Shown in pieces: positions 11,283-33,005 of a stretch of 36,808 nucleotides of DNA; the stretch's first letter is position 1; each line of letters starts with the position of its first letter. The notes beneath the pieces were generated by a model. It did no database searches. It saw only the letters and a list, made by a program, of their open reading frames with translations, and had not been told where the DNA came from. Location of the stretch: assembly GCA_002696275.1 (NCBI GenBank), contig NZRO01000012.1:1-36808 (forward strand), read 5' to 3'. Position numbers and translations under genes: made by a program. This stretch comes from Flavobacteriales bacterium. GTDB lineage: Bacteria > Bacteroidota > Bacteroidia > Flavobacteriales > BACL11.

Positions 11283-11834
11283 TTATTCTCCTATAAATTT
11301 TCCGTTTTTCCATAAACCTTCTTTTACAGTTCCGTCAGCCAAAGTCAATCTTCCTTGTCCATGATATTTGTTATACTCAAATTCTCCTATGTATCTATAT
11401 CCAGTAGCAGAAGTAAAAATTCCTTGTCCGTGATATTTGCCATACTCCCATTCTCCTAAGTATATACTGCCATCAAAAAAAGTATAGGTTCCTTGTCCAT
11501 GCTCCATACCATTCTTATGTTTTCCTACGTATTTATCTCCTGCAGCATAAGTATAAGTTCCTTGTCCATGAAATTCACCATCCTTATATCCTCCTGTGTA
11601 ATTCTCTCCATCAGTGAAAGTATAAGTTCCTTGTCCATGAAATTCACCATCCTTAAATTCTCCTATGTATTTATCTCCTTCAAATTTACCTTTTCCATAA
11701 GTATGAGTGCCTTTTCCTGTATATCCATCACTAATCATTTCTTGAGTTACTTCTCTTTGTAAATTATCAGTATCCCCATTCCCACAAGAGAACATCAAAG
11801 GCACACATAGTAATAGTAGTAATAGTTTTTTCAT
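11283..11834 (-). CDS. MORN-repeat lipoprotein
   Basis: A 183-aa protein with a lipoprotein signal (MKKLLLLLLCVPLMFSC, lipobox Cys17), so it should be lipid-anchored in the envelope. Residues 56-170 hold five 23-residue MORN units of the form Y-x-G-E-(F/W)-x-x-G-x-x-H-G-Q-G-x-x-T, flanked by partial units at 38-55 and 171-183. MORN repeats form an elongated beta-hairpin ladder that acts in protein or lipid binding; no specific role is evident. A TATATTTG element lies 6 bp before the ATG, which would give an mRNA with almost no leader. A signal-peptide remnant of a paralogue lies directly downstream. Confidence 0.85.
   Translation of the reverse strand: MKKLLLLLLCVPLMFSCGNGDTDNLQREVTQEMISDGYTGKGTHTYGKGKFEGDKYIGEFKDGEFHGQGTYTFTDGENYTGGYKDGEFHGQGTYTYAAGDKYVGKHKNGMEHGQGTYTFFDGSIYLGEWEYGKYHGQGIFTSATGYRYIGEFEYNKYHGQGRLTLADGTVKEGLWKNGKFIGE
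11325..11669 (-). repeat. five 69-bp MORN-coding repeats
   Basis: Five tandem 69-bp units encode the 23-aa MORN repeats. The stretches coding for HGQGTYT are nearly identical between units 1 and 3, and the unit ends diverge. This is coding repeat structure, not a CRISPR or VNTR outside genes. Confidence 0.8.
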
Positions 11835-13261: not shown

Positions 13262-13705
13262 TTACTTAATTGACAAATATTTAAGTACCGAATTCCAGTC
13301 AGGAAATTTATTTGAACCAAAATGAATTAATTCACCTTTAAATTCTCCTGCTCCATTAGCTGTCCTATCATCTATTAAAAAATCGCCAATTAAAAAATCT
13401 TTTCTATGAGTTAAAATCAATCTTTTCTTTAATTTATCTCCAAAATATTTTTCAATCCAAATTCGTTTATGTGATAATGATTCAATATTACCCCAAGGTG
13501 CTGTCGATGCAATATAAACATCATATTTTCTAGAATCAATAATTCTATTTACTGATTTGATAGCTTGTTTCATCGGCGGTGCATTTAAAAATATATCCGG
13601 AATTTTATCTAATTCGTTAATATATCTTTCATAATCTGGTGAGTTTTTAGCTGATTGTATAAAATCTACAATTACTCCATCCATATCTACATATAATATC
13701 CTCAT
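13262..13705 (-). CDS. 5' nucleotidase, deoxy (NT5C-type HAD phosphatase)
   Basis: A 147-aa HAD-superfamily enzyme of the 5'(3')-deoxyribonucleotidase (NT5C) type. Motif I is YVDMDGVIVDF with nucleophile Asp7 and acid Asp9, motif II is IASTAPWGN, the motif III Lys lies in LTHRKDFLIGDFLIDDRTANGAGEF, and the last also supplies the metal-binding acids. The family removes the 5' phosphate from deoxynucleoside monophosphates. It follows the DUF481 gene by 3 bp and is the last gene of a long co-directional series. It could be a housekeeping nucleotide-pool enzyme transcribed by read-through. Confidence 0.85.
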   Translation of the reverse strand: MRILYVDMDGVIVDFIQSAKNSPDYERYINELDKIPDIFLNAPPMKQAIKSVNRIIDSRKYDVYIASTAPWGNIESLSHKRIWIEKYFGDKLKKRLILTHRKDFLIGDFLIDDRTANGAGEFKGELIHFGSNKFPDWNSVLKYLSIK

Positions 13706-14437: not shown

Positions 14438-16363
14438 TTATTTTTTATATTTCTTTCTAAATTCATCAGCTAAAACTTTGTCATTATACCCCCATTCATT
14501 TTGAACCTCATCTAATATATAATCTACTAATTCATTATCGTTAATAGATATTTCCAGAGCTTTTATGAAAATTTGTTTAGCAAAATCCTTATCATTTAGA
14601 TTAACATTTACTAGATTAGCTAGATTAACAAGATTATATGGGTCTAAATTATGAAAACCCTTATTTGAATCTAATTGCATTTCACAAAGTTCTTTAGCCC
14701 ATTTCTCGTCTTTTAAATCCTTAGAAACATGTCTTGTTATCTCATATAAATCAATATTTTCTTGAATTTTCTCTACAGATATATGAAAATAATCTTTAGC
14801 TTTTTTCATATCAATAGGATCCATATTATATCCTCCAGAATAGTGAGCTCCCAATTCTTTGAAATCGAAACTTGTTCTAGCGTATTTCTCTCCTGTAGTT
14901 AAAACTTCCAAAGCCCACTTAGAATCAACAAAAACTGTATATATTTCATTAGATAATCTATTATAATCATCAAAAGTTACACATAAATTATGTGCTTTTA
15001 CAAGTATTTCTTTTGCCCATTTATTATCCTTAAATGGTCCATACTCATTAGATATATTACTTGCTAATCCTAATAAGTCACTAGTAGAACAACTAAGGTT
15101 TATCGCCTTTTTATAAACTTCTTTAGCCCATTCTAAATCAGAGAGATAATTTTCATTAGAAATATTATCTGCAAGAGAGATTAAATCTGTTGGTCTATAA
15201 GAACATAATTCACAAAGACGCAACAACTCTCTAGCTTCATCTATCTGTTTATTTTCACATAATTCATCAGATAATGAAAGAACCTCATATCTACTATCCA
15301 TCTGGGTAATTTTCTCAATGGTAGATTGTGTAAGAATGTTCTCATGAGAAAGCATTGGGTGAATAGTAAATCCTTGCTTTAATACTCTAGCAAATTCAGA
15401 ATCATTTAATCCGTACTCGTCTTCAGCAAAATATATTAAATTATCTCTCTCATAACTCTGAAAGGTTGTATTAGATGCTTTATTTATTAATTCTCTAATC
15501 CAATCACGATACTTTAGATTAATATATTCTTCTAATTCCATATCTTCACCATCAAGTGCCTCACAGATCTTCTCAGCAATAGATTTATAATCTTCAGAAT
15601 CTAAACATAAACTCTCTGCCTTTTTAAAATATTGATCAGCATCTTCTCTTCCTTCTTTATGCCATGTTAGATAAAAATATGCAATATCTAAGACATCACT
15701 AACAGATCTTGATTTGTCCGAAGCTATTTCTAGTATTGGATTAAGTGTTTCTGGAAATACTTGTTCTATTTCATATGTTATTACTAATTCTGCAAGTCTT
15801 AAGAAATCAATTGTTTCAACTGCAATTTTTTTTGCTTCTGAAATCATTTTTTCTAACAAGTCTTTATCCGATTTTTTAACTTGTTTATAACGACTGTATT
15901 TTTTAGTCTCCTGACAAAAAACTGAAGGAAATAATAAATCAATGAACATTCTTATAGTCTTATCATAATCCCAAATAGTATTACATTTAGATTGTGCAGT
16001 TTTACATATTTCTAAAGCCCAGTCTTTATCATTTAGATTTTCTTTTATTGATGATGATATAGTAATATAATCTTCAGCTTTCAATACTCTATCTAATAAT
16101 AATTTATAAATATTTCGAGAGGTCTCTAAAGATGGATTTATTTTCATAACCTTTTCTTCTCCATTACTATCCCAATATCTAAACTCAGTATTCTCTATTG
16201 ATTCTTGAGTTATTTCGTCCTCATAAGTTACTATACCATCTTTTAGCTGTGATAAATCCAATTTACTCTCACCTAAAGATGTCTCAACCGCAAAAGATTC
16301 AGCAAGTTGAATTGAAGTCCATAAATCTTGAGTATAAATTATATCTAAGTATTTCTGTTCCAT
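14438..16363 (-). CDS. TPR/Sel1-like helical-repeat protein (641 aa)
   Basis: A 641-aa cytoplasmic protein built from degenerate helix-pair repeats of about 38-45 residues with the signature (N/D)-D-x-x-W-A-x-E-(I/V)-x-x-x-A followed by a Cys and D-(Y/L)-x-x-L-(A/S). Clear copies include KDWALEICKTA (about residue 113), LEWAKEVYKKA, NKWAKEILVKA, SKWALEVLTTG, EKWAKELCEMQ and KDFAKQIFIKA. Such arrays are protein-interaction scaffolds. The first 80 residues are different, rich in acidic residues and strands. It lies 55 bp downstream of the gene at 16419 and could be a target-recognition or scaffold subunit of the putative DNA-processing cluster. No enzymatic motif is seen. Confidence 0.72.
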   Translation of the reverse strand: MEQKYLDIIYTQDLWTSIQLAESFAVETSLGESKLDLSQLKDGIVTYEDEITQESIENTEFRYWDSNGEEKVMKINPSLETSRNIYKLLLDRVLKAEDYITISSSIKENLNDKDWALEICKTAQSKCNTIWDYDKTIRMFIDLLFPSVFCQETKKYSRYKQVKKSDKDLLEKMISEAKKIAVETIDFLRLAELVITYEIEQVFPETLNPILEIASDKSRSVSDVLDIAYFYLTWHKEGREDADQYFKKAESLCLDSEDYKSIAEKICEALDGEDMELEEYINLKYRDWIRELINKASNTTFQSYERDNLIYFAEDEYGLNDSEFARVLKQGFTIHPMLSHENILTQSTIEKITQMDSRYEVLSLSDELCENKQIDEARELLRLCELCSYRPTDLISLADNISNENYLSDLEWAKEVYKKAINLSCSTSDLLGLASNISNEYGPFKDNKWAKEILVKAHNLCVTFDDYNRLSNEIYTVFVDSKWALEVLTTGEKYARTSFDFKELGAHYSGGYNMDPIDMKKAKDYFHISVEKIQENIDLYEITRHVSKDLKDEKWAKELCEMQLDSNKGFHNLDPYNLVNLANLVNVNLNDKDFAKQIFIKALEISINDNELVDYILDEVQNEWGYNDKVLADEFRKKYKK

Positions 16364-16418
16364 TTCTTATTAATTAAATTATTTTACAGGATTTTTCTAT
16401 ATTACTTTCTTTCATAAA

Positions 16419-17366
16419 CTATATTAATCTTACATCTAACTTATCATCTTCTCTCTTAAAGATCTCCCAAACACCATGTAAATCCTTATTATATCTACAA
16501 ATAGTTTTATCATCATTCTCAAACAAGAAATCAAATTTATCATCACCGCATATTCTTTCTTTATTACATTGATAATATCCGGTTCTTGCTCTCTTATTAA
16601 TTATTTGAATTGAAACTTGAGCACTTAAAGTTCCTTTTTTAATATTAGTATATTTATCAAGAATAATATTAATAAATTCTTTCTTTGAAATAGAATCTTT
16701 TCCTAAATTATTAAATTCATTTTGTATAATTTCCCATATAGATAGATCATTAGATTTTGAATTAGATTGATTAGAAATCTCTTTAGTGTTTACTTCCTCT
16801 TTGGCTTCTGAACTAGTTTTTAAAAAAATACAATTTTTTAAATCTATTTCAACCGAAAAACCATCATCTTTGTATGCAGTTTTAAAAAATGTGTTTAATG
16901 AATTATATAAACAAACAATTTCATCAGCTGACACAATTGATTTGTCAAATATCATTGATGATGAAATTCCAATAACTTGTGGACCTCCTTCTAATCTAAT
17001 TAGTGGTTGGCCAGTATCTTGAATTGTATAAATTCCTATATCTTTAAAATCTGAAAATGGTATAAACATATATTCTGTACCATCATCAACTCTTGGATCT
17101 AATGTAACAATACCATGTGTTGTAACTAATAATGGAGTGTCAAATGCTTGATTAATGCTTATTCCCTCAGTAAAATAAATTAAACCATTTTCAGCACGTG
17201 ATTCACTAGGTATATCTTCATCATCAATTAATTCTGCAAAATCTAATCCATCTTCACCCCATTCAATTAATCTCATATTTTCATCCATTGGGATAAGTGA
17301 AAATTTATCATTAGGAAATGTAGTTGTTGTAAAACTATTTAATTCTAAAATTTCTTTAAATTCCAT
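16419..17366 (-). CDS. hypothetical protein with possible PH-like domain and C-terminal winged-helix-like module
   Basis: A 315-aa protein. Residues about 77-165 read like a bacterial PH-like barrel (LLVTTHGIVTLDP, YMFIPFSDFKDIGIY). A low-complexity linker (185-207, Ser/Asn/Lys/Glu) leads to a module at 208-303. There a helical segment (IWEIIQNEFNNLGKDSISKKEFINIIL, written here across three helices) is followed by GYYQCNKERI, DKFDFLFE and the ending HGVWEIF. I know this C-terminal pattern (KYDFLF, then YDPEKHGVWEI) from restriction- and defence-associated proteins, where it looks like a winged-helix DNA-binding unit, but I cannot name the Pfam family with certainty. It sits 30 bp after the gene at 17397. 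Confidence 0.62.
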   Translation of the reverse strand: MEFKEILELNSFTTTTFPNDKFSLIPMDENMRLIEWGEDGLDFAELIDDEDIPSESRAENGLIYFTEGISINQAFDTPLLVTTHGIVTLDPRVDDGTEYMFIPFSDFKDIGIYTIQDTGQPLIRLEGGPQVIGISSSMIFDKSIVSADEIVCLYNSLNTFFKTAYKDDGFSVEIDLKNCIFLKTSSEAKEEVNTKEISNQSNSKSNDLSIWEIIQNEFNNLGKDSISKKEFINIILDKYTNIKKGTLSAQVSIQIINKRARTGYYQCNKERICGDDKFDFLFENDDKTICRYNKDLHGVWEIFKREDDKLDVRLI

Positions 17367-17396
17367 ATTTTATTTTTATTAATTATTAATTTATAT

Positions 17397-17981
17397 TTAG
17401 TGATTAGTCCAAGCGTATGCTTCAAAACCAACTCCTCTAACATCGATTAAATCAAATGGAACATTTTGTCCATTATATTCAATTGAAGTAACAATAGTTA
17501 TTTCATTATAAATTAGTGTTATTGTTTTTAAAAAAACTTTTAACTTATTAATATCAAACTGATCTTCTGATTGAAACTCTCCATAAAACCACATTGCTTT
17601 TTCTTGTGAAATTGAAGATACGAGCGTCGCCCCTATTTCTGGATCCGGCGCTAATTCAACAACTTCATCTTTAATGATTGAAACTTCACAATCAATTGAG
17701 GTTTCATCAGAAAATTGATACTCTCCAATTAAATCATCTCCATCAAGATTTCTCACAGTAATTTTCTGAAATTGGTCTGGTCCATGATGATATCCTAGAT
17801 CTGAAATATCAGAAAACTGATATTTCTCTGAGATAATAGAATCTAAATTCATCATTACAACATCCCATTCACACTTATTATCATTCATGTAATTAAGACA
17901 TTTGTTAGTTTGCTCAACATTTAATGTGCCAGATGCAATCTCATATCCTTCACCTGCCAATTTGATTGAAAATTTATTCAT
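17397..17981 (-). CDS. hypothetical acidic protein (194 aa)
   Basis: A 194-aa acidic cytoplasmic protein of no recognised family. It begins with a strand-rich segment (FSIKLAGEGYEIASGTL) and contains two short internal echoes (KYQFSDISDLG and EYQFSDETSID). It ends in a strand-rich region (YNEITIVTSIEYNGQNVPFDLIDVRGVGFEAYAW, in several strands). No catalytic motif is visible. It lies 6 bp downstream of the KAP ATPase gene, so the two are very likely co-translated, and it may be an accessory of that ATPase. Confidence 0.6.
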   Translation of the reverse strand: MNKFSIKLAGEGYEIASGTLNVEQTNKCLNYMNDNKCEWDVVMMNLDSIISEKYQFSDISDLGYHHGPDQFQKITVRNLDGDDLIGEYQFSDETSIDCEVSIIKDEVVELAPDPEIGATLVSSISQEKAMWFYGEFQSEDQFDINKLKVFLKTITLIYNEITIVTSIEYNGQNVPFDLIDVRGVGFEAYAWTNH

Positions 17982-17987
17982 TTTAAT

Positions 17988-19847
17988 TTATTTATCTGTA
18001 ATTCCTAATATTTCATTCACATTTGGATGACTTCTTTTTAATAAATTAAGTTTTTTATCTCTAACTTCATAAGACATCTTAAAACATGATTTTATCTCCT
18101 CATCTAAGGAATTAATATTAATTATAGTGTAATATTCACATCCTTTTGTGTCATTTCTCATATTTTTAACTTCATGAGAAATGTTAGGAAATCTATATCC
18201 ATTTTCTTCTGTTCTTAATAGATTAATTGTAACACCATACTTACTAAATACATTAAGATTCCCAACCTTTTTACCATTTTTATGAAATAGAGCCGCACCA
18301 TGCTTTCTTAACTTTATATTTATTTCAGGATAATCAGATTTAATATAGTCGTGTATGGATTTATGAATTGTAATCATTTCAGGAGTAATGTTATCATCTT
18401 CTTTTCTTCTTTGTTCTTCCCATAACTCATAAGTATCAAAATTACTTACAGTAAAAGTAAATTTTTTATTAGTTTTAGATTCTATAGCATCATCAACAGA
18501 GGTCATAGAAGCAAATTCCATAGCTCCGTCTATTTTTCTATAAAGATCTTCCTTTTTCTTAAAATGATTTCTTAAATCATCCAAGAGCATTGCCGTTCTT
18601 GTCCAATTTGCTTTTAAATAACTATCTTTTTGAGCTAAACCAAATAATACTCTTTCCCAATCTTCGTCTGCCTGTTCATTAAACTGTTCTGATTGTTTTT
18701 TTAGTTCAGACAATGATCCTAATTCAAATTTTGCCGCAACTACTTCGTTCCATTCTAAAAACTTAGGAAACTGATTAAATAAACGGAAAACCCTTGGAAA
18801 AGAAACTTGAATTCCTATAAGATTAAAGAGTACAAAATCATCATTCTTATCATTGGTGCCATCATCGGAAATTTCGGATATTTTTCTTAACAAAGAGAAA
18901 GTATTTAAGTATCTTTTTAAACTTCTTGGATTAAAACCAACAGTATTGCTTACTACTTTAACATATTTAGGCAAAATATCTTCATCAATATTAATTCCCA
19001 ATTCTTTAAGTTTTTTATCTAAGAAATTTTCAATATTATATGCTCCTGTAGGCATTGAAAAAGGAACTTGAATAATCTTATCAAAAAAAGAACGAAACTC
19101 TCTTTCATTTTCATCTGTCTTTTTTCCAAACTTTTCTTCTAGCCCTTTCACAACTACATCATAGTCGATCGCAAGAATAAAAATACAGTCATTAATATCA
19201 AAAATGTTTTTTAATGATTCTAAAACTTCAACAGCGTCTACCGGGTTTATTCTGTCTAAATCATCAATGAAAAAAACAACTCTTTTATAAGGATTTTTTT
19301 CATCATTAATCAAATCAGTAATTACATCCTTTATGTCTGCTTTAATCTCCGCTATGTCAGCGAGTATATTATCTGAACTTACTCCAGCAGCATTTTTAAC
19401 ATCTACTCCTGTTTGAGAAGAAACAATTTGATTAGCAACATTTCCTAAAAAACTACCAACTTTTTTAATCTTATTTTCAACATCATCTGTTAAAGTCCAA
19501 TTGTCTCCACAAGATTCTTTTAACTTTTCAAGCATTCCCTTTAAAACAGCAGGAGTAGTTTGATCTACTCCTTTAAACATGGAATATTCCCATGTATTTA
19601 CCCAAGAAGTTGCAATCGCATAGTTTTCCTCTTCAGCAAAACTATCAAGTTTTTCTTTTATCATATACATTAATGATGTCTTACCAGTTCCCCATTCACC
19701 CTGCATACCAATTGTAAGTGGTGTGCCGCTTTCTAAAATAAAACTACTTAGAGCGTTTGCATATTTTTCAGCTTCTAACAAATCACTTTTAGTGTCAAGT
19801 ATAGGTTGATCCGTAATTGAAGTTATTTTATTATATAACATATTCAT
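17988..19847 (-). CDS. KAP family P-loop NTPase
   Basis: A 619-aa KAP-type STAND/AAA-like ATPase. Walker A is Gly50 to Thr57 in MQGEWGTGKTSLM; Walker B is VVFFIDDLDRINP with Asp195/Asp196/Asp198. FILAIDYDVVVKGLEEKFG and NPRSLKRYLNTF are typical KAP sensor segments. Unlike many KAP proteins it has no transmembrane insertion between Walker A and B; that region (about 130-180) is short and polar. The last 130 residues (from about 490) form a separate alpha/beta domain (IHDYIKSDYPEINIKLRKHG, then LNLLKRSHPNVNEI). That domain resembles DUF5655-type domains associated with nucleases, a low-confidence call. KAP ATPases recur in anti-phage gene clusters. It precedes the gene at 17397 by 6 bp and follows the DUF2779 gene by 33 bp. 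Confidence 0.88.
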   Translation of the reverse strand: MNMLYNKITSITDQPILDTKSDLLEAEKYANALSSFILESGTPLTIGMQGEWGTGKTSLMYMIKEKLDSFAEEENYAIATSWVNTWEYSMFKGVDQTTPAVLKGMLEKLKESCGDNWTLTDDVENKIKKVGSFLGNVANQIVSSQTGVDVKNAAGVSSDNILADIAEIKADIKDVITDLINDEKNPYKRVVFFIDDLDRINPVDAVEVLESLKNIFDINDCIFILAIDYDVVVKGLEEKFGKKTDENEREFRSFFDKIIQVPFSMPTGAYNIENFLDKKLKELGINIDEDILPKYVKVVSNTVGFNPRSLKRYLNTFSLLRKISEISDDGTNDKNDDFVLFNLIGIQVSFPRVFRLFNQFPKFLEWNEVVAAKFELGSLSELKKQSEQFNEQADEDWERVLFGLAQKDSYLKANWTRTAMLLDDLRNHFKKKEDLYRKIDGAMEFASMTSVDDAIESKTNKKFTFTVSNFDTYELWEEQRRKEDDNITPEMITIHKSIHDYIKSDYPEINIKLRKHGAALFHKNGKKVGNLNVFSKYGVTINLLRTEENGYRFPNISHEVKNMRNDTKGCEYYTIININSLDEEIKSCFKMSYEVRDKKLNLLKRSHPNVNEILGITDK

Positions 19848-19880
19848 TATTCATTTTTAAATTCTCAATATTACAAAAAT

Positions 19881-21875
19881 TTATGCTTTTATCATCTCTC
19901 TCCAAGCTTCTATTATCATAACCATAGCCATAGTATCTAACTCGCAGTACTTATAAAGAGCCTCTTGCAATTTTTCTCGTTGTTTATCTGTAATATTAGA
20001 ATATTGTAAAAAGTTGTATGCAGTTAAAGCCGCTCCACCATCATTCAATTCTTCCAAACCCTTAATCTTTTCAACCTCATCATGGTCATACTCGGGAAAA
20101 ACTGGGTCTAATGATTTATACGGATCTATTTGACCTGATTTTATCCATTGATGATCAATGCAGTTTAAGCTATTTATTTCTAATCCTTTTCCATACACAC
20201 CCAATTTCCCATATTTATCTTGTAAAAACTTACTCTCAGATATGATAGCAGGTAAAATTACTTTTATCGAGTTACTTCCTTTAGCATATGGAGAGTAATA
20301 GTAAGATGTAACTAATTTAAAAAGATCTACCATATCCCTATCCCCACCGTTCCTTCCTTTATCATGTGTAATTTCTTCAATAAAACAAATAAGTTCTTCT
20401 TTATCTGGAATACTTTCCGTTGACGCTAATAACTGCTCTCTTATTTTATTAAGTGTAGTATTTTCATGATTGTGGTACCTAAATATTGTCCCTTTATCTT
20501 TACTGAGAGCTTCTTTTAATGCTCGTACGAAATTAAAATTAGGAAAAGTATTTTTCTCAAAACAGAGATATTGATTTTCATGTTTAATATTCCAATCTTC
20601 ATCAATTGTATGGTGAGAAAACTGAAAAGCAATTGTCTCATAAGGTTTCATTCCCTTGAAAAAAGGTAAGGCTACAGCTGAAGTTTCAAAATCAATCATA
20701 TGTAAAGGATAAACCCATTCTTTACTTTTTTCTTCGAATGCTTCTGAATCAAAATAACTCTCAGAAACACCTTCCTTTACTCTATTTATCTGTTCCATTC
20801 TTCTTTGTAAAGGAGAGAGACCATTATACACTTTTAGACTCGGAGATAATGGTGCTACATCTTCCTCATTAATATCTTTTAGTAAATAAATTCCTTTTTC
20901 AATAAGCTCACCACTAAATGAGCGACTACCACCACCACCTCCCCAAATTTCCATAGACAAGTTTTCTTCTTTAAGCTGTCTTTCTGTCAAATTAGTTTGG
21001 CTTAACCAACATTCGTTAAACCCACTTTTTAGTTCAGGATTATTTTTATTATGAAACTGACAATCTTTACATTTCTTTCCAATATGTACTTGTGTTTTTA
21101 TATCATTTTCATACATATAAGAACATCTCTGAATAAATTCAGTGAACATAATCCCCTCTCCTAGATCAGTTGGCACGGGGAAATCATGTTCAATTTTCCA
21201 ACATTCATCATTCACATTTTTATTAATAAGGAGTTTAACTTCTCCTAAGTGACTTCTTCTTAAACCTTCTTTTACCCTAACAGTAGTTCGGTCCCCAGTT
21301 TTATCAATCATAAAAAACTGGTTCATTCCATCTAATTCAGCGGTTTTTGATTTATCAACTAAAGTAAGATAAGCTTTAATATCCTCTTTTTTCAATGCAT
21401 TACTAACGACATATTTCTGGAAAGCAACATCATATACATAAGGCATCCAAGGTGAAGTTATTTTAGTTTTATTTTTATCAAAAAAACTATCTTCATCCAC
21501 ATCCCATGATTTTGCTTTAACCTCGTAAATTGAAATCTGATTATCCTCTTTTACTAATATATCGATACGAACAAAAAGATTATTAAATTTAAAAGCTGCC
21601 TCTGCAATTACAACTCTTCCCTTTTGAGATAAGCGTTCTTTAGTTTCGATTAAAGCTTCCTCTCCACTACTTTCTATGGTGATACTTTCCTCAATAGGAT
21701 TGTCATGAAAATAGAATTTTGCTAATTCTCCAACTTGAAAACCACCTTCGGCTAAAGATTGTAAGAAAGAATCTTCATTACTAGTATTTGCATACTCATC
21801 TTTTTTATTGGTGTAGAAAAGTTTTGTAGGACATTCCAATCCTTGTTTAAAACGTGATTTAGTTAAATATCTCAA
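19881..21875 (-). CDS. DUF2779 protein: Cas4-like PD-(D/E)XK nuclease plus DEDD exonuclease-like domain
   Basis: A 664-aa protein. Residues 1-295 form a Cas4/RecB-like nuclease: candidate Fe-S cysteines Cys15 (GLECPTKLFY), Cys269, Cys272 and Cys289. The PD-(D/E)XK core comprises Glu92, Asp105 (VRIDILVKE) and Glu118/Lys120 (IYEVKAKS). A polyglycine loop (WGGGGGSRSF) lies near 311. Residues about 390-664 are the DUF2779 region with a DEDD exonuclease-like pattern: Asp395/Glu397 in MIDFETSA and Tyr643/Asp647 in YCELDTM (DEDDy spacing). It probably degrades or trims nucleic acid ends. The start codon is TTG at 21875, directly after the stop of the upstream nuclease gene (TAA-TTG); an in-frame stop precedes it and DUF2779 proteins begin at this point, so TTG is accepted. 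Confidence 0.88.
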   Translation of the reverse strand: MRYLTKSRFKQGLECPTKLFYTNKKDEYANTSNEDSFLQSLAEGGFQVGELAKFYFHDNPIEESITIESSGEEALIETKERLSQKGRVVIAEAAFKFNNLFVRIDILVKEDNQISIYEVKAKSWDVDEDSFFDKNKTKITSPWMPYVYDVAFQKYVVSNALKKEDIKAYLTLVDKSKTAELDGMNQFFMIDKTGDRTTVRVKEGLRRSHLGEVKLLINKNVNDECWKIEHDFPVPTDLGEGIMFTEFIQRCSYMYENDIKTQVHIGKKCKDCQFHNKNNPELKSGFNECWLSQTNLTERQLKEENLSMEIWGGGGGSRSFSGELIEKGIYLLKDINEEDVAPLSPSLKVYNGLSPLQRRMEQINRVKEGVSESYFDSEAFEEKSKEWVYPLHMIDFETSAVALPFFKGMKPYETIAFQFSHHTIDEDWNIKHENQYLCFEKNTFPNFNFVRALKEALSKDKGTIFRYHNHENTTLNKIREQLLASTESIPDKEELICFIEEITHDKGRNGGDRDMVDLFKLVTSYYYSPYAKGSNSIKVILPAIISESKFLQDKYGKLGVYGKGLEINSLNCIDHQWIKSGQIDPYKSLDPVFPEYDHDEVEKIKGLEELNDGGAALTAYNFLQYSNITDKQREKLQEALYKYCELDTMAMVMIIEAWREMIKA

Positions 21876-22901
21876 TTATTTTCTCTTTTTTTTCTTAAAT
21901 AATTTAGGAAATTCTTTGTCGCATAATTTCTTTCCTGTATTCTTAATTTTAAATTGCGACAATGAGTCTTGACCGCTCCCCCCTTTAACTTTGTTGACTT
22001 TTAATTTTATTCCATTATTAATGAGCGTGTTAGGTGTAGAGAAAGGTTCTCCGTCAAACCACAAGAGATAATCAGATTTTAGAATCACTTCATGTTCTTC
22101 CTTAATACCTCCTTTAGGTGTATACTCTCTAATCAAAACTAAGGGAGTTCCATATTTCTCACCTACTTTCTTCAATCTATCATCAACTTTAGGCATATGA
22201 TCATAAAGTATATTCAAAGCTTCTCTATATTCTGAATTCTTCCAAATCGTGTGACATAACGTTTCTAGATCTTTATTTTTCATAATTTTTTTCTTTTTTA
22301 ATAAATCTAAATAGTTATCAATTAGTATTTTGATTTCATCTTTTAATTTTTTCTTATTATCTTTAAGATATTTCAATAAAACTTCTGACAGATCATTATA
22401 GTTTGCAAGTGCCCATTTACCACTAGAGGGCTTTTTTGAATCTAATTTTGCTAAATAAATGTAATAAATCTTGCAATCTATTGATGGATATAATTTTGTA
22501 GAAATACTTTCATACTTTTGTAATTGATTCTTAGACTCTGAAGAGTTAACTTTATTCTCTATAACAAATATTTTACTATTAGAAATATCTTCTATAAGAA
22601 TATCTATGTCTTCCTTTTCCCTATAAATATGTATTGGGCCATTTATTCTAGATTCTGTATATCTTAATAAATCTATATCATGTTGAAAAACTTTTTTTAA
22701 AAAATCAAACAATATTTCATTATGGTTAAATTCAAACAACCAAGACAAAAAATTAGAATGTTTAATTTCCTGATTTTCCATACCAGTAATCTCAAAAATA
22801 TTAATTTTATTAGATTTTTTAGAGATTTTTGATAGATCTTGTTTAACATTATTTAAGAAATTATTTATGATCTGGATTTGTGATTTTTGTTTGTTGTTCA
22901 T
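21876..22901 (-). CDS. PD-(D/E)XK nuclease superfamily protein (PDDEXK_4 type)
   Basis: A 341-aa protein. The N-terminal 200 residues match the PDDEXK_4 pattern: HSNFLSWLFEF with upstream acidic residues (about 45-56), the catalytic core Asp98/Asp100 (KEDIDILIED) and Glu115-Asn-Lys117 (FVIENKV). A QxxxY motif at Gln126-Tyr130 is like that of RecB-family nucleases. A central helical region is followed by a lysine-rich C-terminal domain (200-341), suited to DNA contact. Proteins of this type often appear as orphan nucleases in defence islands. It starts 1 bp after the ligase stop and its own stop abuts the TTG start of the DUF2779 gene. Confidence 0.85.
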   Translation of the reverse strand: MNNKQKSQIQIINNFLNNVKQDLSKISKKSNKINIFEITGMENQEIKHSNFLSWLFEFNHNEILFDFLKKVFQHDIDLLRYTESRINGPIHIYREKEDIDILIEDISNSKIFVIENKVNSSESKNQLQKYESISTKLYPSIDCKIYYIYLAKLDSKKPSSGKWALANYNDLSEVLLKYLKDNKKKLKDEIKILIDNYLDLLKKKKIMKNKDLETLCHTIWKNSEYREALNILYDHMPKVDDRLKKVGEKYGTPLVLIREYTPKGGIKEEHEVILKSDYLLWFDGEPFSTPNTLINNGIKLKVNKVKGGSGQDSLSQFKIKNTGKKLCDKEFPKLFKKKKRK

Positions 22902-22902
22902 T

Positions 22903-24255
22903 CTAATTTACTTTTTCCCATCCTTTTTTTACATTGGTCTCTAATTCCAACTTTAAAATATTTTCAATCTGTTTTAAATTCTCTGATACCTTTATTTCCT
23001 TTTTCAAAGGCTCTTTTCTTTCTGGTGAGTAATCAGTATAATGATATACGAACGCAGGAAAGTCATTAGTTTCTTCTTTATTTGTTTTCCAAACTATAAA
23101 TTTTCTTACCTTTTTAACTCCCTTACTCTCTTTTACATAAACTTCCCTGTGTAATATTTCACTTTCTTTTAGTTCGGTATTACTTTTTTTATTAGGCTCC
23201 AAAGAAATAATCTTGGTAATTTGACTAATTCCAACATCTTCAGTATTTACCTTTTTATCATCTCTGAAAGACAAAAATACACCAGATGTCACTGAAAAGG
23301 ATGGCTTCTTGAACTCAGCCGAATAACTATCTTTATTAAATTTAAGACTCATTTTTTTAATACTGCCCTTGGAGGTTTCACTATATACATCTAAACAAGA
23401 AAACTCAACCACCTTGGTTGGCTTAACCATAGTAAAAGCTATATTAGAAGATGAAACCTCAACATAATCAGAATCTACTTTCTGTCTTTCTAAATCCTTA
23501 AAAATTAAATCTCTTTGCTCCTCAGAAAATCCATTCCCAACTTTAGCAATAGTCAAATATTCATTTTCTGATATTTTTAGAGCTAATAATAATTCTTTTA
23601 GCTTATTTTCCCTAATTCCTTGTCCTTCCGAAAAACCGACAACTACTGCATCTAAAGTTAAAAGTGGTTTTATTTTATAAGTTGGAGCGTTATCAGATTG
23701 AACAATAATTCCTTCTTCATTTCCTTTCACTACAATATCATCAAACAAAGATTCAATGTCTTTTCTGCTTTCAACAAAAAAGGAGTCTACTGAATTTATA
23801 GATTTCCCTCCTTTTAATAACTCTTTCAACTTATTATCTAAGTCTTTTATATTTAAATTTTTTTCTTCACCGTCTAACAATAAAATGTCGAAAACTTTAT
23901 ATCGAACATCTTTATGTTTATCATCTAATGCTGAAATCAAGTCAAATGAACGAGATCGTTCTCCTTCTTTGTGTAGATACAATTCACCTGCTAATATTAC
24001 TTCTGTATACTTTCCTTTTAATAATTCGTCTGCTTCTTTCAAAACCCCTATATCAGTTAACTCTTTTCCCCCATGGTTATAAAGTATCGATTTCTTACCG
24101 TCAAAATAAAGAAGGTATAAATGTCCATCATACTTTTTTGAAACATAATATAAATCTGAATCAATTATTTTGGTTGTTATTTCCTCTGATGAGACTGGAA
24201 GATATCTTGAAGCTGTTTTCCTTTTATATTCTTTTGCTAATTGTAATATATCCAT
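22903..24255 (-). CDS. ATP-dependent DNA ligase (minimal N-terminus, long C-terminal extension)
   Basis: A 450-aa covalent nucleotidyltransferase. Motif I is KYDG with Lys41 as the AMP-accepting lysine (VSKKYDGHLYLLYFDG); a motif II/IIIa-like LAGELY follows with Glu91. Motif III is YKVFDILLLDGEE, motif IV EGIIV (181-185) and motif V YKIKP (193-197). The catalytic domain begins almost at the N-terminus, so there is no separate N-terminal DNA-binding domain. After motif V about 250 residues remain: an OB-fold-like part (DAVVVGFSEGQG, then LTIAKVGNGF) and a Lys/Glu-rich tail I cannot assign. RNA ligase activity cannot be excluded. It lies 1 bp before the PDDEXK gene and 4 bp after the gene at 24260, which implies that it seals ends produced by the neighbouring nucleases (inference). 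Confidence 0.88.
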   Translation of the reverse strand: MDILQLAKEYKRKTASRYLPVSSEEITTKIIDSDLYYVSKKYDGHLYLLYFDGKKSILYNHGGKELTDIGVLKEADELLKGKYTEVILAGELYLHKEGERSRSFDLISALDDKHKDVRYKVFDILLLDGEEKNLNIKDLDNKLKELLKGGKSINSVDSFFVESRKDIESLFDDIVVKGNEEGIIVQSDNAPTYKIKPLLTLDAVVVGFSEGQGIRENKLKELLLALKISENEYLTIAKVGNGFSEEQRDLIFKDLERQKVDSDYVEVSSSNIAFTMVKPTKVVEFSCLDVYSETSKGSIKKMSLKFNKDSYSAEFKKPSFSVTSGVFLSFRDDKKVNTEDVGISQITKIISLEPNKKSNTELKESEILHREVYVKESKGVKKVRKFIVWKTNKEETNDFPAFVYHYTDYSPERKEPLKKEIKVSENLKQIENILKLELETNVKKGWEKVN

Positions 24256-24259
24256 ATTC

Positions 24260-24994
24260 TTATTTTTTAGGCAAAGATTTTAATTCCTGGTCCGTTAAAT
24301 GTAAGATTAAACAATATTTATCATCTTGCACCCTTCCTTCTAAGAATGATCTATATGGTTTTCCTCCATCATTCAGCACTAATGGTTCTTTTCCAGATTC
24401 CCCACCTCCTAACATCATTAATGAATCTTTTTCATCAAGTTGTTTAGCCATATCAAATAAGAAATCATAAGTAAGACCGTTAATGTGTTTTATCTGATAC
24501 TTCTTGTTAAAAACTAATTTATTATACACCTTTGATTTTGGCATCATTTTACCAGTCCATTTTACGATCTGATCTAACACATTACTTTTGTTATACTTAG
24601 GTTCTCTCTCTTCTTTCAGCTCAGCTGTTGGACTAAATATTTTTTCTATTTTTTTGACTTTAAAAACTGGTTTATTTTCCTCATTGATATATACTCTCTG
24701 CAAATCTGAAATATATTTTCCACTCATTTCAAAATCAATTTCTGTATCATCTGTTATTATTTTTTCAGATAACAAAATAGATTTCTGCAACTGTTCATCT
24801 TCCGTTTTATCTACTTTAAGTCCTTTGATCAAAGAACTAAATTCAGTGTTTGAGGTAGATTTCAAAACCCTTTTATTTATCACATCTCCAGGAGCGTTAA
24901 TTCCTAATTTAACAGATGCCTTAGGGTTTAATGAACGGTAAGTTACCTCTGCATCTCTATTTTTCTCATTTGATAATTTTATATATCTAATCAT
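24260..24994 (-). CDS. hypothetical protein (244 aa) coupled to DNA ligase
   Basis: A 244-aa protein of no family I can name. It opens with IRYIKLSNEKNRDAEVTYRS and NPKASVKLGIN. A Lys/Glu-rich central part (about 60-140) follows, then a better ordered C-terminal half with GGGESGKEPLVLNDGGKPYRSF and KYCLILHLTDQELK. The GGGESGK segment resembles a P-loop only superficially; there is no Walker B partner. No signal or membrane segment. It lies 4 bp upstream of the ligase gene and 10 bp downstream of the gene at 25005, so the three are almost certainly co-translated. Confidence 0.65.
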   Translation of the reverse strand: MIRYIKLSNEKNRDAEVTYRSLNPKASVKLGINAPGDVINKRVLKSTSNTEFSSLIKGLKVDKTEDEQLQKSILLSEKIITDDTEIDFEMSGKYISDLQRVYINEENKPVFKVKKIEKIFSPTAELKEEREPKYNKSNVLDQIVKWTGKMMPKSKVYNKLVFNKKYQIKHINGLTYDFLFDMAKQLDEKDSLMMLGGGESGKEPLVLNDGGKPYRSFLEGRVQDDKYCLILHLTDQELKSLPKK

Positions 24995-25004
24995 ATTTTA
25001 TATT

Positions 25005-25607
25005 TTAAAACATTGCAAAATCTAGTTCATCTTCTTCCGAGCTTTCTTCTTCATTAAGTACAAGTTCTTTTTCATTGTCATTCATCCCAATAAATTCTAA
25101 ATCAGCTATTTTACCTGTAACTACAAAAGCGGTTTCTCCATTACTAATAAGAAAGGCATCATCTCCTTCATAATCCGCACGATAATTAAATACAAAATAT
25201 AATACTTTACCGTCTTTTAGTAGAGATAACATTGTAGTATCATCCTCCATATTTAACTGATAAACTGTTTTTACTGCTAAGGATAGATAATCATCAATTG
25301 TAGATTCTTTTAATTCTATTATTCCATCATAAATGGAAGGAACCTTTTCAACCTTTTCACCATTCTGATTAAAACCAACTAAATCCGAAGATGAAACAGT
25401 CTCTCCTTTATCATTAAATTTTAAAAGAGATGAACTGCCAGATGGTAAGACATGTATTCCATCTGAGATAGATGCTAATTTACATTTACTTCCATTTTCA
25501 TCAAATACCTCTACAGAGGACCAACCATATATCTTCTTTCGATCTACTTTTTTTAATTCCGCTTTTATTGATGTCCCATTAATTATGAATTCCGCTTGTC
25601 TTGCCAT
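25005..25607 (-). CDS. hypothetical protein with acidic SSB-like C-terminal tip (200 aa)
   Basis: A 200-aa strand-rich protein. The N-terminus (ARQAEFIINGTSIKAELKKVDRKKIYGW, in two strands) leads to a beta-rich body (KCKLASISDGIHVLPSG, VLYFVFNYRADYEG, FVVTGKIADLEFIG). The last 16 residues are almost all acidic and end DELDFAMF. That layout, an acidic tail tipped by hydrophobic residues and a terminal Phe, recalls the SSB C-terminal tail that docks repair enzymes. No family assignment is possible from memory. It lies 10 bp before the gene at 24260; the 83 bp upstream of it hold nothing I can assign. Confidence 0.65.
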   Translation of the reverse strand: MARQAEFIINGTSIKAELKKVDRKKIYGWSSVEVFDENGSKCKLASISDGIHVLPSGSSSLLKFNDKGETVSSSDLVGFNQNGEKVEKVPSIYDGIIELKESTIDDYLSLAVKTVYQLNMEDDTTMLSLLKDGKVLYFVFNYRADYEGDDAFLISNGETAFVVTGKIADLEFIGMNDNEKELVLNEEESSEEDELDFAMF

Positions 25608-25690
25608 ATTATTTTATTTTCTATTCTATTTATTTTAAGTTCTTTAATTAATTCAGCAGGGATTTCATAACATTATTTACTAAATAAATT

Positions 25691-26269
25691 TTAATCAATG
25701 AACATCATATTCCCAGGTATTTCACCGGATACATATTCAATATCAAGGTGACCCAAATAAAGTTCTTCATTCCAGTCAACATTATCGTTTGAATACCAAT
25801 ACGAGTAATTATCCTCTACTAAATTAGAAAGTTTGCTTTTATAACATAGAAACATTTCATCATATCCTGAATATTCCTCTACTTCTTCTGATGTATATAC
25901 CAGATCTCCTCCCCAGAATAAAATATTATTCCATAAATCATCTAATTTACTAAACATCTCTTGAGTTTCAACTTCATTAATTTCTTCAATAGATCCAGCC
26001 GAAGAAGGATCAAATACTCTACTGTCTCCAACATAAAGATCCCAAGTAGCCCATTCATTTTCGTGGTCATATTCCGCTTTACATACAATATTATATTCAC
26101 CAAATGTTCCTCCTCCCTGAGATTTAAGATGATAAGCATATGCCCAAGGGGAGTTAGGCTTTTGAATAATTATTAAAGCTCCTGTGACTAAACATAAATC
26201 ATCTCCTAAGTCATCAGGAACAGATTCAAAACATATCCTAATCCTAGTATTGAATTTTATATTTTCCAT
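25691..26269 (-). CDS. hypothetical acidic protein (192 aa)
   Basis: A 192-aa acidic, Trp- and Tyr-rich protein with no recognised family, signal peptide or membrane segment. Strands at the start (FNTRIRICFESV, CLVTGALIIIQK) and WAYAYHLKSQGGGTFGEYNIVCKAEYD suggest a beta-sandwich-like N-terminal half. A helix (VETQEMFSKLDDLWNNILFW) and an acidic C-terminal half follow. It lies 28 bp after the LRR-like gene and has the same acidic character as the proteins at 26298 and 27098. Confidence 0.6.
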   Translation of the reverse strand: MENIKFNTRIRICFESVPDDLGDDLCLVTGALIIIQKPNSPWAYAYHLKSQGGGTFGEYNIVCKAEYDHENEWATWDLYVGDSRVFDPSSAGSIEEINEVETQEMFSKLDDLWNNILFWGGDLVYTSEEVEEYSGYDEMFLCYKSKLSNLVEDNYSYWYSNDNVDWNEELYLGHLDIEYVSGEIPGNMMFID

Positions 26270-26297
26270 ATTTTTTTAAAAATTATTATAATATTAT

Positions 26298-27095
26298 CTA
26301 ATCTTCTATATCATCTCGATGCCTTGTGTAAGAAGTAATAAATGTCCAATCATTAGTAAATAAAGCTAGGCAAGATTCATTATCTGAAGGCCAAATATAA
26401 CTGTTTTGTGAAAAATGTTCATCTAATTTATCTTCTCCTATCCAAAAACCTAACTTTTCACGGGTAGTTACATTTATTGATTTTGGACCTGACCATCTAA
26501 AATCCGCAATAGTTTTATCGTGAAAATCTTCTTCAGAAATAGTGATAATACCTATCTCACCAAATAAATGATCTAATTCAAGTTCATCAAATAAGAAATC
26601 GAGTTGTTCCCACCAATCTTCTTCCATAGCCTCAATATTTCCTCCAAAATGCATTCCTGAGTTAGTTCTCAATCCCGTTACATTAGGTAAATCTTCTAAT
26701 TCATCAACATCTAAACTCAGTAAAGATGGAGAATTTTTAACATTTAAAAACTCTAAATTTTTAAGTTTTTTTAATCCTATAATATTAGTTAAATTATAAC
26801 AATAACTTGCATTTAGAGAAATTAAACTTATAAATTGTGAGACATCTAATTCATCTATCTCACAAGTACTTATATCAAGACTAGTAATGTTTGGTGTAAA
26901 ATCCTTAAGTATTGAAAGCCCTTTATTTACTTGAATATTATCAATAATTCCTTCAAAATAAAGCTCACGTACTCTTTCTTGAATTAAACTAGAAAAAGAT
27001 TCTGATATCTCTTCATTTTTAATATCCTTAAGTAATTTAAGTCCTCGTTCTATATCAGATGATTTTAATAAATTTTCTATCTTTTGTTTACACAT
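26298..27095 (-). CDS. leucine-rich-repeat-like protein (265 aa)
   Basis: A 265-aa protein. Residues 1-60 are helical and Lys/Glu-rich. Residues about 65-150 carry four or so degenerate leucine-rich repeats (ITSLDISTC, LISLNASYCYNL, LEFLNVKNSPSLLSL, LPNVTGLRTN). The C-terminal 110 residues are acidic and aromatic (DWWEQLDFLFDELELDHLF, FRWSGP, FWIGEDKLDEHF) and look like a separate domain. LRRs usually bind protein. No export signal is seen, so a cytoplasmic partner-recognition role is likely. It lies 2 bp after the 67-aa acidic gene. Confidence 0.65.
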   Translation of the reverse strand: MCKQKIENLLKSSDIERGLKLLKDIKNEEISESFSSLIQERVRELYFEGIIDNIQVNKGLSILKDFTPNITSLDISTCEIDELDVSQFISLISLNASYCYNLTNIIGLKKLKNLEFLNVKNSPSLLSLDVDELEDLPNVTGLRTNSGMHFGGNIEAMEEDWWEQLDFLFDELELDHLFGEIGIITISEEDFHDKTIADFRWSGPKSINVTTREKLGFWIGEDKLDEHFSQNSYIWPSDNESCLALFTNDWTFITSYTRHRDDIED

Positions 27096-27097
27096 TA

Positions 27098-27301
27098 CTA
27101 TTCAATAGTATAAACTTCATCATCATCATAACAATCTTCATCAATTTCAATCATATCATCAAATCTAGAGTTATCCCAAATGAACCCAGTAGGATCACCA
27201 TCATATTCTTCTTGTATTTGAGTATATTCCTCCTCAGTAATTTCCAATTCTAGATACTGAATAGTAGACCATCTTTTCTCACACTTGATTTTTCTTTTCA
27301 T
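27098..27301 (-). CDS. small acidic hypothetical protein (67 aa)
   Basis: A 67-aa protein with a basic start (KRKIKCEKRW) and a very acidic remainder (EITEEEY, then MIEIDEDCYDDDEVYTIE). No family recognised. It is retained as a gene because it begins with an ATG in an appropriate context and ends 2 bp before the LRR-like gene. Its acidity matches the following two products. A DNA-mimic or small partner role is conceivable but unsupported. Confidence 0.5.
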   Translation of the reverse strand: MKRKIKCEKRWSTIQYLELEITEEEYTQIQEEYDGDPTGFIWDNSRFDDMIEIDEDCYDDDEVYTIE

Positions 27302-30759: not shown

Positions 30760-31176
30760 CTAACTTAAATATTTCTTTACAAATTGTTCAATATAAATTT
30801 TAAGACTTTTACAGACCTTAGAATAAATCTTTATTAACTCCTCTTCTTTTCCTCTCGCTTTTGCTGGGTCAGGAAAAGATTCATGTAAAACATTAGAAGA
30901 AGGAAATACCGGACAGAGTTCTTTTGCACTATCACAAACTGTAATCACATAATCAAAATTAACATCCTTATATTCCAATACATTATTAGATGTATTTTCA
31001 GAAATATCAATACCATATTTTCTCATAACTTTTATGGCATATGGATTTACCTTTTCTGGATGAGTCCCCGCAGAATAAACCTCAACTTCATCACTAGATG
31101 TAAGATGATTCAACCAACCATCTGCCATTTGAGATCTACAGGAGTTTCCTGTACATAAAATCAATACCTTTTTCAT
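30760..31176 (-). CDS. arsC: arsenate reductase, thioredoxin-coupled (LMW-PTPase type)
   Basis: A 138-aa low-molecular-weight phosphatase-fold arsenate reductase. The anion-binding loop is Cys8-TGNSC-Arg14 (CTGNSCRS). The redox cysteines Cys81 and Cys88 lie in VCDSAKELCPVFP, and Asp103 in FPDPAKA is the expected general acid. The spacing matches the pI258-type, thioredoxin-dependent enzymes (Cys10/82/89). It reduces arsenate to arsenite in the cytoplasm. No ArsR, ArsB or Acr3 gene is nearby. Its ATG shares one base with the stop of the upstream CotH gene (TAATG), so the two are translationally coupled. Confidence 0.9.
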   Translation of the reverse strand: MKKVLILCTGNSCRSQMADGWLNHLTSSDEVEVYSAGTHPEKVNPYAIKVMRKYGIDISENTSNNVLEYKDVNFDYVITVCDSAKELCPVFPSSNVLHESFPDPAKARGKEEELIKIYSKVCKSLKIYIEQFVKKYLS

Positions 31177-32918
31177 TACCTTAAAATTATCTTTCTTTCT
31201 ACACTACCATCATCGTAAATAAAGAATAATGGAATGTTTTTTATTTCTTTCACTTCTCTTCCTAAAACATCTACAACCTTTATAAGTCTTTTCAGTTCTG
31301 ATATTGGGGAGTTTAAATTAGCTGATACAGAAGAATATTCATAAAATTCATATTCTGCTTTTTCAGGCGACAACATCATTGCATCATTGTTTTGTGCTCT
31401 GATATAAAATTTAATATCTATTGTAATTGGTAAACTCACAGAATACACACCATCCCCAGCAATTTGGTCTCCATTTACTCCGTCATCATTCATTGTTAAT
31501 GATTGAAATTTAGAATTATATTCACTTGTAGTATACATAAATTCAACTGAAGAGGTGTTAAACACATAAGCTTCAACTATATTATTATTTAAAGAAACAT
31601 TAGAGATCGATGGGGGTATTAATGCAATTTCGGGGTGATTTAGTAAATAATTTTTTCTTTCATCAATACTAGACATAATCCCTCCAAAACCCCAGCCAGT
31701 CCATATTGGATTTTCTACATTATTGTAAAAGTCAGTCACTCCGAATGCTTTATAATTATCATTAACAACAGCGTTATGAACAAGGCCTTGTAAGTTGTGA
31801 ATTTTACCTCTAATGACAGAAGTATCTAAACTTTCATTAATAATTGTTCGTAAATGTGCTGTATATTGTTTTCGATATGTTGGATGATTCAGCAACAATG
31901 CAGTTAATGGCCTTCCAATTGATGGATCATCTCCATAATACGGATCATATTCGTATACATCTGATGGATTCCAAAAACTCCATCCCATAATAGCACCAAC
32001 AAAACTTTCACTTAAGTCCCATGGTATCATATTGAATAAACCGTCTTCTCTTTGATATAGATAATAATTATGAACATAATAACCATTATAAGTATCTAGA
32101 TTTGAAATAACTTGATTAACAGCAAAAGCCCATAGTGTTCTATCAACATCTAATATACTATCAATAAATTGCGGATTAAAATTTATTATTTCAATTAAAT
32201 TGAGCAAATTTTCCCATCCAAATTCAGACTTCATATCATAGCTATTGTAATATAAGGATGTATCTTCTCCTAACCAATTTAAGTCAGGTATTCCTCCAGT
32301 AGGTGTTCCAGTAGTATCACAAAACATTCCACTTCCGTCACATTTAAACATAGATCCATTTTTTTCGTCGAAATGTTTATCTGTAAATTGTTTATTAATA
32401 GACTCAGTATTTACATATAGTCCTAAATAATTTCCTTGAACATACAGTTTAACAAGATTTACTTCAGGAGAGGGTAAATAATTTCTATAAATCTGAGATG
32501 CTGAAAACTCCTTCATAAATGTTGGATCCATCCAAGCATTTGCTAATTTTAATTTTTTCTTTCCCATAAACTTCTGTCCAGAGACAAAATAATTGAAATC
32601 TAAATTATAAGGCACTTTAGGATTACCTACATCATTTGGTAAACAAAAAGTAGAATTTCCCTTATATCTTACTCCAACACTATCATAAACCATACCATTA
32701 CAAGTAACAGTAGCTGGAATTCTGTATTTAGGATTTGTAAAAAAAGAATTGACAAGTACCGAATGATAATTTGGGTCGTAAAAATCAATATATATAGATC
32801 TAACAGAATCAATATCAAATAACCCACCAGGAGTTTCGTAGAATTGGTGAGGGTTATAAGTCGTTTGAGCACTTAAAATTAGAGGTACAAAAAATAATAT
32901 CAATAAAGATTTCTTCAT
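31176..32918 (-). CDS. CotH kinase family secreted protein with T9SS tail
   Basis: A 580-aa exported protein with a signal peptide (MKKSLLILFFVPLILSAQ). I use the ATG at 32918 rather than 32939, because the latter lies inside the -7 element and would delay the signal. The CotH-like kinase domain spans about 35-420: VGVRYKGNST, KKLKLANAWMDPTFMKE, VQGNYLGLYVNTESI, a Cys-containing segment, and the metal-site motif FNMIPWDLSESF. A beta domain of about 100 residues follows. The C-terminus (LKRLIKVVDVLGREV, then FFIYDDGSVERKIILR) is a T9SS sorting tail. CotH proteins phosphorylate secreted or surface proteins. It is coupled to arsC and diverges from the TonB-dependent receptor gene. Confidence 0.88.
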   Translation of the reverse strand: MKKSLLILFFVPLILSAQTTYNPHQFYETPGGLFDIDSVRSIYIDFYDPNYHSVLVNSFFTNPKYRIPATVTCNGMVYDSVGVRYKGNSTFCLPNDVGNPKVPYNLDFNYFVSGQKFMGKKKLKLANAWMDPTFMKEFSASQIYRNYLPSPEVNLVKLYVQGNYLGLYVNTESINKQFTDKHFDEKNGSMFKCDGSGMFCDTTGTPTGGIPDLNWLGEDTSLYYNSYDMKSEFGWENLLNLIEIINFNPQFIDSILDVDRTLWAFAVNQVISNLDTYNGYYVHNYYLYQREDGLFNMIPWDLSESFVGAIMGWSFWNPSDVYEYDPYYGDDPSIGRPLTALLLNHPTYRKQYTAHLRTIINESLDTSVIRGKIHNLQGLVHNAVVNDNYKAFGVTDFYNNVENPIWTGWGFGGIMSSIDERKNYLLNHPEIALIPPSISNVSLNNNIVEAYVFNTSSVEFMYTTSEYNSKFQSLTMNDDGVNGDQIAGDGVYSVSLPITIDIKFYIRAQNNDAMMLSPEKAEYEFYEYSSVSANLNSPISELKRLIKVVDVLGREVKEIKNIPLFFIYDDGSVERKIILR

Positions 32919-32936
32919 AAGAATAAAGTGTTTTGG

Positions 32937-32997: not shown

Positions 32998-33005
32998 TAA
33001 AATAT

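Follow-up and report, generated by a model that had tools for sequence, protein, structure and literature searches.

A conserved trio of two predicted Ku-fold proteins and an ATP-dependent DNA ligase, probably a bacterial end-joining unit

The window analysed here is one entire contig (NZRO01000012.1, 36,808 bp) of a 1.79-Mb metagenome-assembled genome (MAG) of a Flavobacteriales bacterium. It contains a run of 12 open reading frames (ORFs) at positions 14438-27301, all on the minus strand and transcribed from 27301 down to 14438. A first-pass annotation made from the sequence alone had described these as twelve co-directional genes, mostly 1-55 bp apart, and the run is indeed organized in this way, with intergenic gaps of 0-83 bp (2, 28, 83, 10, 4, 1, 0, 33, 6, 30 and 55 bp from the first gene to the last). 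The fourth to sixth genes, the first two of which we designate by their lower coordinate, are the subject of this study. Gene 25005 (25005..25607) encodes a 200-amino acid protein, predicted Ku-like subunit 1, made of a barrel, an acidic disordered linker and the tail DELDFAMF. Gene 24260 (24260..24994) encodes a 244-amino acid protein, predicted Ku-like subunit 2, with a Ku-type barrel and a bridge region that contains a long insertion. The next gene (22903..24255) encodes a 450-amino acid ATP-dependent DNA ligase composed of a LigD-like nucleotidyltransferase domain, an OB domain and a C-terminal domain.

The ligase matches NCBIfam NHEJ_ligase_lig (E = 1e-20), phrog_114 (9e-19) and Pfam DNA_ligase_A_C (1e-5). 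Its best curated family is the non-homologous end joining (NHEJ) ligase domain of LigD, which all 61 family members match, with a score for the window ligase of 74 bits, under the curated cut-off of 227.75. As judged from its sequence, the ligase carries all the motifs of a working nucleotidyltransferase, namely K41xDG (the lysine being found in 59 of 61 members), E91, E181G, K194xK196 and R331xDK334. An extra domain conserved in the family follows the OB domain at approximately residues 345-450, in which S365, R370, K375, K385, T391, K393, R413 and GW445-446 are invariant.

We used this unusual C-terminal part of the ligase as the query to scan 84,980 species genomes. The alignment used for the scan consisted of the window ligase C-terminus and three invented variants added solely to make the search pattern degenerate; matches were confirmed by tblastn with the real window sequence, and full-length matches to the real window proteins were shown afterwards. 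The scan found 165 relatives of the ligase, a lower bound because the search is anchored on the ligase C-terminus and Ku-like pairs devoid of this ligase would escape it, and 80 loci (numbered L) were fetched and compared. When the ligase, 24260 or 25005 was searched for as a single sequence, no close relative turned up among Bacteroidota samples, plasmids, phages or viral contigs.

Homologues of 25005 and 24260 accompany the ligase in the related loci. Of the 54 loci in which all three genes could be resolved, 50 keep the order 25005-24260-ligase on one strand, and the spacing between 25005 and 24260 is usually about 10 bp. Besides these three genes, no gene family located within 10 kb is common to more than seven loci, and the core is often a three-gene unit flanked by unrelated genes. 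Pairwise distances are correlated among the three proteins (r of 0.77-0.81 over 42 loci, for a shuffled maximum of about 0.23), which shows their joint inheritance, with a contribution from the shared ancestry of their hosts. At least ten bacterial phyla are intermixed in the ligase tree, a pattern that fits horizontal spread while leaving it unproven; carriers include gut Bacteroidales, Planctomycetota, Myxococcota and Clostridia, and the closest relatives of the window ligase are found in two Flavobacteriaceae MAGs. The conserved unit is the 25005-24260-ligase trio and not the 12-gene cluster that the first-pass annotation had proposed as a possible operon. That annotation had also stated that its proposal would fall if the components always occurred independently or belonged to a known named system; this was looked into, and the core withstood it.

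The products of 25005 and 24260 match no family in Pfam, NCBIfam, PHROGs and PADLOC scans. AlphaFold models were built from alignments of 61 relatives of 25005 and 58 relatives of 24260 and reached a predicted local distance difference test score (pLDDT) of 86.1 and 90.0, respectively. For 25005, Ku had been guessed from the consensus, and the guess recorded, before the model was finished. When the models were compared with the PDB using Foldseek, all 50 matches listed for each protein were Ku, with best E values of 7.5e-6 (25005) and 6.8e-7 (24260). Alignment with VIA-align gave a Z score of 10.4 for 25005 against Bacillus subtilis Ku (9vnq_A; root-mean-square deviation of 4.8 Å, 153 residues aligned), and Z scores of 13.0 and 12.8 for 24260 against human Ku80 (9cq6_b; 3.0 Å, 123 residues) and Mycobacterium tuberculosis Ku (9i91_B; 4.1 Å, 170 residues), respectively. 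In a viral structure library only two matches to 24260 reached about E = 1e-3 or better, both of them phage Ku, the next being at E = 0.4. Of the Ku core fold, the barrel is strongly recovered in the models and the bridge region less confidently. By predicted structure, 25005 and 24260 are Ku-fold proteins lying outside the Ku sequence family. The first-pass annotation had rightly singled out these two unrecognised proteins for tracing; their Ku fold had escaped it and is predicted by the models.

Several observations weigh against this assignment. The Pfam Ku profile (PF02735) matches none of the 119 members (61 of 25005 and 58 of 24260) at E ≤ 1, and hhalign against 13 canonical Ku proteins gave probabilities of 6% and 0.2%, that is, no signal. 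Foldseek TM-scores to Ku are only 0.4-0.5, neither model shows the C-terminal helical arm that bacterial Ku has, and 25005 was undetected in four loci (L048, L049, L066 and L069). SPOC domains also come after Ku in the PDB list for 24260 (Z = 11.7, about 112 residues). A sequence-profile link between 25005 and 24260 was sought and not found. SPOC domains are protein-interaction domains, not known to be linked to ligases, that share the Ku-type β-barrel, and the two proteins could have only this barrel in common with Ku and act as protein-binding adaptors of the ligase that do not bind DNA ends. The scores of SPOC and Integrator barrels against 25005 (Z of 8.2-8.4), that of SPOC against 24260 and the lack of sequence similarity of both proteins to Ku would agree with such a role. 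On the contrary, several Ku matches of 24260 align over 165-178 residues and pass the barrel, to which the SPOC alignment is confined, Ku occupies all top Foldseek ranks, and two operon partners of an NHEJ-type ligase would be unlikely to share a Ku-type fold by chance. We consider the adaptor explanation improbable.

In place of such an arm, 25005 has its acidic disordered linker followed, in most members, by a D-[LIMF]-D-F-x-[ML] tail, and both residues of its DF pair are invariant in all 61 members. In M. tuberculosis, the C-terminus of Ku recruits LigD (PMC9638933). We propose, with a probability of roughly 0.7, that the core forms a compact machine for bacterial end joining, a hetero-Ku/ligase equipped with swappable nucleases and accessory genes. 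From the predicted Ku folds, the ligase motifs, the gene order, the joint inheritance and the DUF2779 enrichment reported below, we infer a repair pathway operating in vivo in which 25005 and 24260 would most likely combine into a heterodimeric ring that sits on double-strand DNA ends, and the flexible 25005 tail, with its DFxM motif, would most likely contact and recruit the partner ligase. The extra C-terminal domain of the ligase would most likely be the docking or DNA-gripping site. In the window genome and several others the DUF2779 double nuclease would trim the ends before sealing, and the ligase would then seal the break. The first-pass reading of cutting, trimming and sealing activities linked to end repair holds up in this respect.

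Like the Ku/LigD system of NHEJ, the core encodes Ku-fold proteins together with an ATP-dependent ligase that is nearest to the ligase domain of LigD, and has a Ku tail that could recruit this ligase. Unlike that system, whose Ku is a homodimer, it has two dissimilar Ku-like subunits without Pfam Ku sequence similarity, its ligase has a new conserved C-terminal domain and neither a polymerase nor a phosphoesterase domain, and it occurs mostly in genomes devoid of canonical Ku or LigD. Pfam Ku was found in five and LigD polymerase in four of 50 core-bearing genomes, many of which are possibly incomplete MAGs. The window genome has neither canonical Ku nor a LigD primase-polymerase, attached or separate. 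Whether such an absence is anything unusual is doubtful because only 24 of 198 genomes (12%) in a Bacteroidota sample have canonical Ku. What this distribution shows is a core that works in the absence of canonical NHEJ partners, not one that excludes them.

The DUF2779 gene (19881..21875, minus strand; 664 amino acids; Pfam E = 6.6e-23) is a recurrent partner of the core. The N-terminal part of its product resembles a Cas4-like PD-(D/E)XK nuclease, with RID/EVK near residues 103-121 and cysteines of the conserved type, the Cas4 match being weak, and its C-terminal part resembles a DEDD-type 3′-5′ exonuclease with the motifs DFET395, DMVDL514 and CELDT644. A published classification assigns DUF2779 to the 3′-5′ exonuclease clade and reports its fusion to DUF83, a Cas4-like nuclease (PMC3985635). 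Among 49 core-bearing genomes (251 Mb) we counted 16 copies, six of which lie within the 0.83 Mb around the core, where 0.05 would be expected (P = 1e-11); after removal of two hand-added genomes, five were seen for 0.048 expected (P = 1e-9). The six copies are spread over different branches of the ligase tree (L021/L022/L024, L028 and L063/L094), and the association between DUF2779 and the core was therefore gained or retained repeatedly. L063 has a shorter and more distant type of DUF2779. We predict DUF2779 to be an end-trimming nuclease and an occasional but significant partner of the core. Plasmid-borne DUF2779 relatives in Prosthecochloris and Comamonas were considered as core carriers, and the core is absent there. 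In L087, a protein with an RNase_H_2 domain (PF13482; 4398-6098) is encoded near the core, beside a gene resembling an NAD+ ligase; PF13482 families share the exonuclease clade of DUF2779 and may take its place functionally.

Two further genes of the run encode recognizable enzymes and are local accessories. The PDDEXK_4 nuclease (21876..22901, minus strand; 341 amino acids; Pfam E = 2.4e-17) lies 1 bp from the ligase gene and 0 bp from the DUF2779 gene, and matches PADLOC PDC-S26 (1.8e-51). The KAP-family P-loop ATPase (17988..19847, minus strand; 619 amino acids; Pfam E = 5e-36) has no clear transmembrane segment (top 19-residue hydropathy of 1.58) and matches PifA, QatA and PDC-S20. The profile matches bear out the identities that the first-pass annotation had given to these two proteins, to the DUF2779 protein and to the ligase. 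No complete multi-gene PADLOC defence system was found among the ten window proteins scanned. The remaining products, all encoded on the minus strand, are less distinct: a 67-amino acid acidic ORF known from its translation opens the run (27098..27301), followed by a 265-amino acid leucine-rich repeat (LRR)-like protein (26298..27095; LRR_4, 3e-4, under cut-off) and a 192-amino acid acidic protein (25691..26269). Downstream of the KAP gene are a 194-amino acid acidic protein (17397..17981), a 315-amino acid protein with a borderline C-terminal DUF7669 match (16419..17366; 22.9 bits for a cut-off of 23) and, as the final gene, a 641-amino acid acidic, possibly tetratricopeptide repeat (TPR)-like protein (14438..16363; TPR_8, E = 0.07 only). 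The acidic products of 25691 and 17397 match no family in the same scans as 25005 and 24260. The LRR, TPR and winged-helix labels proposed earlier thus find only weak matches. LRR genes are also found between or beside the core genes elsewhere, of the BspA type in L054, L074, L080 and L097. Searches for tRNA genes and Rfam families returned no match in the window, and promoter-like sites are rarer there than in shuffled sequence, so that we claim no promoter.

Could all 12 genes nonetheless form one dedicated and conserved DNA-processing system? Their tight co-directional spacing in the window would suit it, as would L024 from Marinimicrobia, which also has the core, DUF2779 and KAP. The order in L024 is Ku1-Ku2-DUF2779-GmrSD-KAP with the ligase upstream, compared with Ku1-Ku2-ligase-PDDEXK_4-DUF2779-KAP in the window. 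The product of 25691 has a distant homologue near the L024 core on the opposite strand (E = 9e-8). Yet broad conservation is limited to three of the 12 genes: among the 80 loci, L024 is the only one with a KAP homologue near the core (E = 4e-74, beside GmrSD and DUF2779), and no PDDEXK_4 homologue was found near the core. The neighbourhood survey largely refutes a single 12-gene system, which we regard as highly improbable; of the co-occurrence that the first-pass annotation had suggested looking for, the order of the trio and the DUF2779 enrichment are borne out, and the KAP and PDDEXK_4 associations are not. Since the L024 and window orders are close, the extra nuclease seems exchangeable. 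We regard the PDDEXK_4, KAP, acidic, LRR and TPR-like genes as a layer that is exchanged locally and that perhaps couples repair to defence.

An anti-phage function was also weighed, in which the Ku-like proteins would capture incoming DNA ends for destruction by nucleases or inert sealing, with break repair as a secondary role. The resemblance of PDDEXK_4 and KAP to defence proteins, the presence of GmrSD beside KAP and DUF2779 in L024 and of a NACHT protein in L071, and the distribution among close relatives are in its favor: no relative of the ligase was found in five same-genus genomes, and one of these, G024, shares synteny over the right flank (30760-36696), after which it has housekeeping genes in place of the run, which indicates that the run is accessory. 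The defence-like genes are, however, the non-conserved portion of the cluster, and a ligase fits poorly with the destruction of invading DNA. The first-pass annotation had suggested testing for enrichment near known defence genes; L024 and L071 carry such genes, but in many core loci no defence neighbour could be recognised, and in several the core lies right next to repair genes instead. We find defence unlikely as the primary function of the core; it is a possible function of the extended cluster, whose variable genes look defence-like.

The gene directly following the ligase encodes a Mre11/Rad50-like fusion in L083, SbcD and then SbcC in L062, RuvB in L048 and L049, a Strawberry-notch-type helicase in L052 and an NAD+ ligase in L081; most of these are break-repair genes, a setting that favors the end-joining reading. 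Other core loci have unrelated neighbours. A family of 390-440 amino acids, one member of which was scanned without a Pfam match, adjoins the ligase in L076, L088, L093, L095 and L040 (Acidobacteriota loci and one from Planctomycetota), in most cases directly downstream.

Other genes recur around the core. An NT5C-type 5′-nucleotidase is encoded near it in the window (13262-13705), L021 (13143-13610), L022 (17714-18163) and L050 (6180-6626), and an unrelated 5′-nucleotidase (PF06189) in L034 and L094, in the latter close to DUF2779; a link between the core and nucleotide handling is possible. A pair formed by an AAA_5 ATPase and DUF2201, a VWA-like metallopeptidase, lies near the core in L043, L063, L064, L071, L087 and L096, which belong to distant phyla. 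TerC (Pfam 4e-35) and, by eye only, a TerB-like protein are encoded at 7245-8438 in L024, shortly upstream of the ligase, and might connect the core with Ter stress-response clusters. We also weighed a link to a tellurite-resistance (Ter) DNA-processing system, which is possible; TerC occurs solely in L024 among the neighbours scanned. MORN-repeat proteins lie near the cluster in the window (11283-11834) and, by eye, in L024 (3789-4451). A UmuD/UmuC-like pair (S24 peptidase and Y-family polymerase; 7884-9583) lies about 5 kb from the cluster and is kept in same-genus relatives at other sites.

We found no bacterial Ku-Ku-ligase operon described in the library of open-access papers that we searched, and an earlier description elsewhere is possible. 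A 2025 survey describes bacterial Ku as mostly homodimeric (PMC11936186). With its two different Ku subunits, and with Ku80 as the top structural score of 24260, the core recalls eukaryotic Ku70/Ku80 and ligase IV, from which it differs by its bacterial operon and by the lack of vWA, SAP and DNA-PK-binding domains and of XRCC4. Streptomyces likewise has more than one Ku-like gene per bacterium, but KuA, KuB and KuC (PMC5124664) are recognizable canonical paralogues at scattered loci without a fixed Ku-Ku-ligase operon. In Deinococcus radiodurans, DRB0098-DRB0100 (PMC1978522) is a three-gene operon with an ATP-dependent ligase that has been discussed as a possible unusual end-joining set; orthology to DRB0100 was considered, but the domains there are described as phosphatase/kinase types rather than Ku-like, and we set it apart by this description only. 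The broader proposal, that the core represents an undescribed end-joining lineage spanning at least ten phyla, with an obligate heterodimer of two Ku-like proteins that their sequences do not reveal and a dedicated ligase recruited through a short tail motif, that replaces Ku/LigD where it is present, is in our judgment evenly balanced between being right and wrong.

With only three small genes, the core could be turned into a compact tool for end joining in genome editing. A large number of bacteria count as NHEJ-negative because Pfam Ku finds nothing in them; if the core is an end-joining system, the count of bacteria lacking NHEJ is wrong for scattered species of many phyla. Hetero-Ku would then exist outside eukaryotes and would not be a eukaryotic speciality.

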